A DNA stretch of 6,493 bases from NCBI GenBank assembly GCA_020438595.1, contig JAGQUI010000157.1, positions 1 through 6,493 of the forward strand, given 5' to 3'. Source of the stretch: Propionibacteriaceae bacterium. Its GTDB lineage: Bacteria > Actinomycetota > Actinomycetes > Propionibacteriales > Propionibacteriaceae. The position numbers were made by a program, and so were the translations under genes. Position 1 is the first letter of the stretch; each line of letters starts with the position of its first letter. Shown piece by piece: positions 4,374 to 5,501 of the stretch. The notes beneath the pieces were generated by a model. That model was not told where the DNA came from and did not search any database. It saw only the letters and a program-made list of their open reading frames with translations.

Positions 4374-4407
4374 CCAGTTGCGCCCGACAGCGCCGCCCGC
4401 CAGGTCC

Positions 4408-4509
4408 GGGGACGGTTCCGGACGGTCCGGGTTATCCACAGATCCGGCCCGGAATCGGGGGCTGTGGAAAAGGTGGACCGAGTGAGGAACCGTCCCCTAC
4501 TCGGTCCGG
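4408..4509 (+). repeat. 102-bp REP-like element, left copy
   Basis: The 90-bp core (4408-4497) is bounded by perfect 12-bp inverted repeats, GGGGACGGTTCC (4408-4419) and GGAACCGTCCCC (4486-4497). Nested inside are GGTCC/GGACC (4424-4428, 4475-4479) and TTATCCACAG/CTGTGGAAAA (4432-4441, 4462-4471), so the whole core can fold as one interrupted hairpin. The inverted copy at 5400-5501 matches at 94 of 102 positions, and five of the six core differences fall in the spacer between the two nine-mers. No target-site duplication and no transposase are seen. The likeliest class is a non-autonomous, RAYT-type REP or MITE element; that class is inferred. Confidence 0.9.
4432..4471. promoter_or_regulatory. 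Inverted pair of DnaA-box-like sites, left copy
   Basis: TTATCCACA (4432-4440, plus strand) equals the strong E. coli DnaA box. TGTGGAAAA (4463-4471) is the reverse complement of TTTTCCACA. Both fit TTWTNCACA. The two point toward each other across 22 nt. They lie about 70 to 110 bp upstream of the aat start and about 240 to 280 bp upstream of the EcsC start. DnaA binding is inferred, not shown; actinobacterial DnaA often prefers TTGTCCACA. Confidence 0.55.
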
Positions 4510-4674
4510 GGTCCGGTACGGCAGACCGTGTCGCGATTCTGCCATCCAGTCCGTCCCACTAGCCTCACCCGTTCCACTCCGAGCGTCGGGCGGCCGAACC
4601 ACGACGATGCACTCGGGGACGTCCCGGGGTCATCTCCGGGAACGCCACCCTGCCGGGGGTGGGGTCCCGACGCC

Positions 4675-4709: not shown

Positions 4710-5393
4710 ATGGCGAACGCCGCCAGTGACTTCGGCAAGCAACTGGTCACCCGCACCCCGGAGGTGGCCGGCGGCCTGTTGCGCAGCATCGTGGACTTCG
4801 CCATCGACGGCAGCCAGGCGTTCCCCGGCGCGAAGGTCACCGCAGCCCGCTCCCTGCAGTCGAAGGGCGACCGCGAGCAGGCCATCGACTCCCTCGCCCG
4901 CCACCACGTCTCGATGGCCTCGATGCAGGGCTTCCTGACCAGCGTGGGCGGCCTGATCACCCTGCCGGTCGGCCTGCCCGCGAACATCGCCGGGCTCGCC
5001 GTGCTCAGCGTCCGGATGATCGCCGGCATCGCGCACCTGCGTGGCTACGACGTGGACGACCGGCGCGTGCGGACCGCGCTCACCCTCGCCATGCTCGGCG
5101 ACGACGAGGTGCGCCGGCTCGTCGCGGACGGAAAGCTGCCGACCTCGCCGCTCGCCATCGCGACCGCACCCATGTTCGACCCGGCCCTGGAGCAGCGGAT
5201 CAGCGAGCGGGTGATGGGGGCGCTCGCCGGACGCCTCGGCGGCAAGCACCTCGCGGTCGTCGTGGTGCGGCGGATTCCCCTGGTCGGTGGCGGCGTCGGC
5301 GCCGCCGTGGACGGCTGGCTCACCTTCGGCCTGGCCGGCTACGCCAAGCGCGAGTTCGTGGCGCGCTACCAGGCGTCCATCCCGCGCCAGTAG
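4710..5393 (+). CDS. EcsC family protein
   Basis: This 227-residue protein resembles the EcsC domain family, named after a gene of the Bacillus ecs ABC-transporter operon; the biochemical role of the family is unknown. Matching features include a glycine- and proline-rich core SVGGLITLPVGLPANIAGLAVLSVRM (78-103, with moderate hydrophobicity), IAHLRGYDVDD (107-117), LAMLGDDEV (126-134) and a C-terminal RRIPLVGGGVGAAVDGW (187-203) followed by a FGLAGYAKREF segment (206-216). There is no signal peptide. The hydrophobic stretches are interrupted by Gly and Pro, so peripheral membrane contact is more likely than clear spanning helices. No ABC-transporter genes lie next to it. It is the only plus-strand gene in the window and is enclosed by the inverted repeats at 4408-4509 and 5400-5501, the second starting 6 nt past its stop. 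Its base composition looks like that of its neighbours. Confidence 0.8.
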   Translation: MANAASDFGKQLVTRTPEVAGGLLRSIVDFAIDGSQAFPGAKVTAARSLQSKGDREQAIDSLARHHVSMASMQGFLTSVGGLITLPVGLPANIAGLAVLSVRMIAGIAHLRGYDVDDRRVRTALTLAMLGDDEVRRLVADGKLPTSPLAIATAPMFDPALEQRISERVMGALAGRLGGKHLAVVVVRRIPLVGGGVGAAVDGWLTFGLAGYAKREFVARYQASIPRQ

Positions 5394-5399
5394 CGGCGT

Positions 5400-5501
5400 C
5401 CGGACCAAGTCGGGGACGGTTCCTCACTCGGTCCACCTTTTCCACAGGCCCCGTTTCCGGCCCGGAATTGTGGATAACCCGGACCGTTCGGAACCGTCCC
5501 C
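5400..5501 (-). repeat. 102-bp REP-like element, right copy (inverted)
   Basis: This is the reverse-complement copy of 4408-4509. Its core (5412-5501) has the same perfect 12-bp ends, GGGGACGGTTCC (5412-5423) and GGAACCGTCCCC (5490-5501), and exactly the same 90-bp length. It lies between the convergent EcsC and alr genes, 6 nt past the EcsC stop, where its hairpin could also end or protect transcripts. Differences from the left copy cluster between the two nine-mers and in the last bases on the gene-facing side. Confidence 0.9.
5438..5477. promoter_or_regulatory. Inverted pair of DnaA-box-like sites, right copy
   Basis: TTTTCCACA (5438-5446) and TGTGGATAA (5469-5477, reverse complement of TTATCCACA) repeat the left pair exactly, with the same 22-nt spacing, while the sequence between them has changed at five positions. 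The AT-rich nine-mers stand out in very GC-rich surroundings. Being between convergent gene ends, this pair is unlikely to control a promoter, so DnaA titration or a purely structural role fits better here. Confidence 0.55.

Follow-up and report, generated by a model that had tools for sequence, protein, structure and literature searches.

Our main finding is that the window, by which we mean the whole 6,493-bp stretch of DNA that was analysed, holds two copies of what sequence comparison identifies as a REPIN-like element of the RAYT (REP transposase) kind, with DnaA-type boxes on the inner side of its REP arms. The part that appears to be new is that one box links this REPIN, its RAYT and competence genes. 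We regard as probable the explanation that the element is mobilised by a RAYT and shares with RAYT and competence promoters a site that is read by one host protein.

The element in the window

The anatomy of the element can be read directly from the two window copies (Table 1), which are 93% identical to each other, have palindrome ends of 12 bp (GGGGACGGTTCC/GGAACCGTCCCC) and each fold into a hairpin when treated as a DNA strand, with z of -5.4 for copy 1 and -5.0 for copy 2 against shuffles. The first-pass annotation had described two nine-mers facing each other across 22 nt, both of them present again in the second copy, and a spacer with five differences between the copies, and the sequences agree on each of these points. 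The motif TTWTNCACA occurs four times in the window versus 0.01 expected, and none of 200 shuffles reached four; the nine-mers are real and non-random. It had further been claimed that the A/T mismatch between the arms is conserved. This stands for the two window copies, but two of the three copies in a related genome (G144) have TTTTCCACA on both arms, and the argument built on a conserved mismatch therefore fails.

Table 1. Coordinates of the two element copies and their parts in the window
Feature	Position	Strand	Context or basis
REPIN-like element, copy 1	4408..4497	+	aat-ecsC gap; 90-bp imperfect palindrome
Copy 1 left REP arm, GGGGACGGTTCC...	4408..4431	+	18 of 24 columns invariant over six copies
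Copy 1 DnaA-type box, TTATCCACA	4432..4440	+	only position 3 varies over six copies
Copy 1 spacer	4441..4462	+	five copies have a 22-nt spacer; 10 of its 22 columns are invariant in them
Copy 1 DnaA-type box, TTTTCCACA, facing the first box	4463..4471	-	TTWTNCACA match and copy alignment
Copy 1 right REP arm	4472..4497	+	contains the 22-mer at 4475-4496, dispersed as REP units
REPIN-like element, copy 2	5412..5501	-	ecsC-alr gap; 90-bp imperfect palindrome
Copy 2 DnaA-type box, TTTTCCACA	5438..5446	+	TTWTNCACA match
Copy 2 DnaA-type box, TTATCCACA	5469..5477	-	TTWTNCACA match

The genes around the elements, as named by Pfam, are a prephenate dehydratase, one gene without a match, an Fpg/Nei-type glycosylase, aat, an EcsC-family gene and alr. 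An Rfam search of the window with E-values up to 1 gave no match. The EcsC-family gene (4710-5393), which lies between both elements, matches the PADLOC candidate defence family PDC-S29 with an E-value of 3.2e-68. A composite transposon made of the two inverted elements around ecsC was considered and rejected, as relatives have adjacent aat and ecsC genes without the element. The window also contains a third palindrome at 1015-1069 (GGGGACGGTTC...GAACCGGGACCGTCCC), which is REP-like and lacks the nine-mers, and a perfect 27-bp inverted repeat with zero loop at its very start (1-54), which could be a terminator or a palindrome at an assembly end.

Copies in relatives and constraint on the boxes

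Six full copies are known: the two in the window, one in UBA6238 (G001) and three in G144. The window pair sits in neighbouring gaps and the other four copies occupy four different loci. A query with the 90-bp element gave the full-length G001 copy (G001:C35:89351-89440), and a search of 198 Propionibacteriaceae genomes with a pattern of REP start, box and facing box recovered that copy together with three further full elements, all in G144. This pattern gave 16 rows, eight for the four elements, each counted once from either side, and eight without paired REP ends; the reversed control gave one match. By the patterns used there is one full element in G001 and there are three in G144. None was seen in a Propionicimonas MAG (G002) with the 90-bp query and the exact pattern, none was found in viral contigs with the exact pattern and none in plasmids by distant blastn.

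The Aat protein closest to that of the window is from G144, at 89% versus 88% for G002, and the aat-ecsC gap of this closest relative by Aat (locus L095) does not have the element. The alignment of the window to this locus jumps from 4403 to 4590 over about 64 nt, which implies either an insertion in the line of the window or a loss in G144. Occupation of several loci combined with an empty site is what a REPIN/RAYT system should leave behind, and both are seen here. From these comparisons the element is probably mobile. Other REP palindromes occur in or near the gap that holds copy 2, namely in the ecsC-alr gap of L095 and after ecsC in L101 and L103, as if REPs had entered the gap after ecsC repeatedly in relatives. 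Tandem single REP units (GATCTGGACCGAGTTCGGAACCGTCCCC) lie directly behind one of the full elements of G144, after position 814 of L290 (G144:C294).

Constraint on the boxes is observed in the alignment of the six copies, where 16 of the 18 box columns are invariant and the two that change are the third positions of the boxes (A or T in the left box, T or G in the right). Among the REP arm columns 40 of 50 are invariant, which means that the boxes are conserved to a similar degree as the arms, and not more. The first-pass annotation had proposed two checks on this point. Greater conservation of the nine-mers than of the rest, for which it proposed to look, is not borne out against the REP arms. 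Free drift of the nine-mers, which would have spoken against its reading, is absent from these six copies, which change at position 3 only.

The similar conservation of boxes and arms, and the folding of the whole element as one hairpin, are what would be expected if only the hairpin mattered and the nine-mers were stem sequence that resembles DnaA boxes by chance. However, the sole change in the boxes falls on position 3 and its pair is broken in four of the copies (both window copies, W1 and W2, the G001 copy and the C294 copy of G144). The same nine-mer is also fixed in the promoters of the likely mover, the RAYT, and a relative of the element built from another REP type (L089) has the same two-box layout, with decayed boxes. 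We consider chance resemblance in the stem to be quite improbable.

REP units and the RAYT partner

The link between REP and RAYT is observed in two genomes in which the REP sequence is abundant. In the genome_contigs collection the exact 22-mer of the right arm is found in 14 stretches of only two genomes, G001 and G002, both of them Propionibacteriaceae. At E-values up to 10 the 90-bp query gave 159 matches in G001 and 54 in G002, counts in which some matches are included on both strands; among the matches listed, most cover the outer 26 bp, which is the REP tip in the right arm. Most REP matches in these two genomes are without a box. Each of the two genomes has two RAYT-like genes, with PF01797 (Y1_Tnp) over its cut-off in both. 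The REP of the window flanks the RAYT at G001:C75 on both sides and lies upstream of the one at G144:C268. The AlphaFold2 model of the G001:C75 protein (pLDDT 83) is closest to the REP-bound TnpA-REP structure 4er8, with an E-value of 7.7e-7. The REP-associated transposase model NF047646 matches all four RAYTs, the one member shown scoring 68.2 bits, which is below the cut-off of 80.

Taken together, the REP matches, the RAYT genes, the REPs that flank them and the 4er8 and NF047646 matches point to a REPIN-like derivative. REPINs are described in the available text of PMC3116915 as REP doublets that form hairpins and go with RAYT transposases. The element has the inverted REP pair and the hairpin, it is intergenic, the same REP stands beside a RAYT gene in the relatives G001 and G144, and the partner protein is a RAYT by family, fold and model. 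Unlike the REPINs of that text, it has two DnaA-type boxes on its loop side, and its full form is rare here while single REPs are common.

A second group of known systems is similar in other respects. TIRtrons with their TIRYTs, and TnpA-REP subclass 2.1, have the terminal repeat GGGGWSAS according to the accessible parts of PMC3733652 and PMC6006769, and the GGGGAC... ends and long Y1 protein with a C-terminal HTH found here resemble these descriptions; the likeness to subclass 2.1 is one of ends and protein layout. According to the available text of PMC6006769, the terminal repeats do not resemble DnaA boxes, whereas here DnaA-type boxes are found in the RAYT promoter and on the inner flank of the REP.

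The box before RAYT genes

RAYT genes were collected with a profile search of the Propionibacteriaceae at a threshold of 1e-20, in which at most 13 candidates were scored per genome. This gave 32 matches in 18 of the 198 genomes, 30 with a locus and two without (both G180). Seven loci of a distant group (G180/G188) were counted apart, leaving 23 family loci. Box positions are counted from the start of the profile; in four loci this start falls one codon into the gene.

Of the four RAYT genes in G001 and G002, three carry TTWTCCACA immediately before the gene, and in the remaining one TTCTCCACA takes this position. Over the family loci, TTWTCCACA is found on the gene strand in 16 of 23, and TTNTCCACA at -79 to -113 in 22 of 23. 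In 18 of the 22 boxed loci a TANNNT follows 47-50 nt downstream of where the box begins, with none at any other offset within the 80 nt read, and a second box stands 29-32 nt upstream of the first in 13 of the 22. The promoter stretches contain 26 boxes in 2,070 bp, compared to one in the remaining 78,881 bp of these loci, and neither TTRTCCACA nor TTTTCCACA occurs on either strand of 42,426 bp around aat (12 loci). All 23 RAYT loci have GGGGAC upstream of the first box, at most 34 nt away in eight.

None of the seven G180/G188 loci has a box on the gene strand, one of them having an inverted box at -58. Elsewhere in the phylum, 29 new RAYT loci were gathered and five were left out as partial matches or contig edges (L147, L152, L157, L163 and L164); a box at -60 to -120 was absent from all 24 loci read, one of which has TGTGGAAAA at -222.

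The orientation of the boxes depends on where they are found: they face each other in the element, form direct repeats in RAYT promoters and diverge in the yraN promoters described below (16 of 19). The spacing to a same-strand -10 that marks the RAYT promoters is also absent from the element, with no TANNNT at promoter distance from any of its 12 boxes, so the element boxes resemble binding sites that have no RAYT-type promoter attached.

The box before competence genes

Genome-wide, TTWTCCACA has 17 matches in G001 and 19 in G002 against six in each for the reversed pattern, an excess of only about threefold. A number of the other sites are upstream of DNA uptake and processing genes. An extended pattern, CTGTGGAY-N-TTWTCCACAG, matched in 27 of the 198 genomes with no match for its reversed control; it was used as a lead only, because it picks promoters by the motif itself. 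Eight proteins from its loci were scanned with NCBIfam. Two are ComEA, for which the full-length model is below its cut-off in both and the HhH-repeat model over it in one, while one YraN and one Ssb are over their cut-offs; the rest are a DNA-3-methyladenine glycosylase I (below cut-off), a weak FlgA-type match and two proteins without a match. For ssb this is the single example with a box.

For comEA and yraN, loci were found by protein family and not by motif, and the 30 best-scoring loci of each were read, along with 20 further yraN loci of our own choosing. The box was looked for in up to 450 bp around the open-frame start of comEA and in 260 bp for yraN. Before comEA, TTNTCCACA is present in 22 of the 30 loci and missing from eight, with a background of three boxes in 86,814 bp. 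In 17 of the 22 boxed loci comEA has an in-frame start codon at a distance of 58-60 nt from the beginning of the box, a spacing as for a leaderless transcript. Judged by the position of its -10, RAYT transcription would start at about the same distance from the box.

Before yraN, TTNTCCACA is present in 19 of the 30 best-scoring loci and in nine of the 20 further ones, one of the nine (G147, at -28) being probably within the start of the gene; 11 loci of each set are without it. Outside the stretches searched, the first 30 loci hold a background of four boxes in 88,747 bp. The spacing from box to -10 is kept in 14 of the 19 boxed loci, a softer result than that for RAYT because the -10 pattern had been widened for yraN.

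This shared promoter architecture is observed, and it does not seem to follow the RAYT genes. At the 1e-20 threshold, a RAYT profile match is missing from the genomes of 21 of the 22 comEA loci with a box, and from those of every one of the 19 such yraN loci among the first 30; the box therefore seems independent of RAYT. From its distribution, we take the box to be a site in the promoters of competence-type genes which is used by RAYT genes as well. Among the titles and abstract openings listed for open-licence PMC papers, none reports the box in RAYT or competence promoters.

Which protein may read the box

That the nine-mers are DnaA-type boxes, as had been proposed from their form, is further supported by the dnaA-dnaN regions of relatives, which have TTTTCCACA and TTGTCCACA in G001 and TTATCCACA and TTCTCCACA in G002. 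The DnaA profile finds one protein per genome over its cut-off. DnaA is the simplest candidate reader because of this shared box form and the one protein per genome that passes as DnaA, yet a reader other than DnaA is at least as likely.

One form of the preferred explanation is that DnaA itself is the binder and regulates the transcription of competence and RAYT genes, with the elements carrying DnaA sites. The TTNTCCACA form with its change at position 3 recurs in the dnaA-dnaN regions of both relatives, which argues for DnaA along with its single protein per genome, but sequence does not separate DnaA from other proteins that recognise the same site, and a term search for 'dnaa' found it absent from the main texts of three Micrococcus luteus competence papers. 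We see DnaA as binder as a real possibility that stays somewhat short of even.

The first-pass annotation had gone further, suggesting a dispersed element that titrates DnaA or times replication. The comparison is with datA and DARS, which are clusters of DnaA boxes, with paired DnaA-type nine-mers away from the origin. The element likewise carries paired DnaA-type nine-mers away from the origin, in the box form of the dnaA-dnaN regions of two relatives and conserved over six copies. Unlike datA and DARS, however, it is probably mobile, has two boxes in each of few copies and shows nothing that points to a role in replication. The patterns used give only 0-3 full elements per genome of a relative, too few to sequester DnaA. 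Furthermore, the G001 element accounts for only two of the 17 TTWTCCACA sites of that genome, several others of which, by eye and uncounted, stand before genes. A system of titration or replication timing is thus very unlikely.

The boxes could alternatively be bound by the C-terminal helix-turn-helix of the RAYT itself. A C-terminal domain of subclass 2.1 RAYTs is likened to DnaA domain IV (DnaA_C-like) in the accessible parts of PMC6006769, and at the C-terminus of the RAYTs found here lies a helical region that matches HTH models weakly. Nevertheless, almost all boxed comEA and yraN loci are in genomes without a RAYT match, the RAYT loci read elsewhere in the phylum do not have the box at the corresponding place, and similarity to host DnaA domain IV is undetectable (hhalign probability 1.8%, two DnaA sequences). 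We find binding by the RAYT improbable. The narrower proposal that the RAYT C-terminus is a DnaA domain IV was rejected, as Pfam gave weak HTH matches only and no Bac_DnaA_C at E-values up to 1 in four RAYTs.

A model of shared control

In the explanation that we prefer, of an element moved by a RAYT and sharing its box with RAYT and competence promoters, the element would be non-autonomous, its two inverted REP arms being mobilised in trans by the RAYT, a Y1/HUH single-strand transposase. Each arm carries a DnaA-type box at its inner side, which is unusual, and the same box stands at a fixed distance before RAYT, comEA and yraN, with one example for ssb, in the Propionibacteriaceae. A host DNA-binding protein, either DnaA or another with the same target, would bind all these boxes and set the timing of RAYT and DNA-uptake genes. 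We infer that the element boxes derive from the REP-plus-box end of RAYT units, as GGGGAC precedes the RAYT boxes in the same way that REP precedes the element boxes, which suggests descent from the RAYT end or a shared design. Several of the results above weigh against the preferred explanation: most REP matches in G001 and G002 are boxless, the element boxes differ in orientation from those of RAYT and yraN promoters and have no TANNNT at promoter distance, the box columns are no better conserved than the REP arms, L089 has decayed boxes, the RAYT loci read outside the family and those of G180/G188 do not have the box at the corresponding place, part of the yraN and comEA loci are without TTNTCCACA, and TTWTCCACA exceeds its reversed control only about threefold.

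Such a shared switch would make sense given that RAYT acts on single-stranded DNA, as described in the available text of PMC6006769, and that this substrate is present both in DNA uptake and at replication forks. The weakest step in the preferred explanation is the reason for keeping the boxes. They may be kept to bring the binder to the hairpin and thereby fit mobilisation to the conditions under which RAYT is produced, which we hold to be somewhat less likely than not; alternatively they may be kept by mere inheritance. The promoter comparisons suggest that hairpin hopping and DNA uptake may be under one control.

A bolder reading is that DnaA, or a reader of DnaA boxes, is the missing competence regulator in Propionibacteriaceae with RAYT in the same regulon, the TTNTCCACAG boxes being bound some 60 bp upstream of the points where transcription of comEA and of the yraN operon is inferred to begin. 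Held jointly these claims are rather unlikely. If they were true, REP mobility would be tied to DNA uptake and single-stranded DNA, and moving REPINs, which carry a pair of boxes, could bring the reader to new places. For Micrococcus luteus, the regulatory cascade of competence is said to remain unidentified in the available text of PMC12849477 (January 2026), a text in which a description of a comEA-comEC operator is absent; in comparison, the box is known here from the comEA and yraN genes of Propionibacteriaceae. A comEA-lacZ reporter is already employed in M. luteus (PMC12849477). The box thus offers a sequence handle on two questions, the competence switch in Actinomycetota and the regulation of subclass 2.1-like RAYTs. 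Its fixed distance to the comEA, yraN and RAYT starts makes shared control directly testable.

Other sites and repeats

A box of the TTNTCCACA type also precedes a gene in each of seven other loci (L076, L062, L071, L075, L079, L085 and L057). By eye, the genes of these loci look like nrdR, a pilin-like DUF4244 gene, DUF559-type nucleases and a GIY-YIG nuclease. On the minus strand of L180 and L182, divergent boxes stand before SAF/CpaB-like membrane proteins, which are perhaps parts of a Tad pilus; in NCBIfam the L182 protein has a weak FlgA C-terminal match only. The centre of L081 (G002:C204:35677) shows a third REP type, GTGGGGACAGACCCCAC, with a single GTTATCCACAG in its loop. In L078/L080 (G001:C61), repeats of the form GTAGGACCGAGCGGGCC lie between two TTATCCACA sites that are 225 nt apart.
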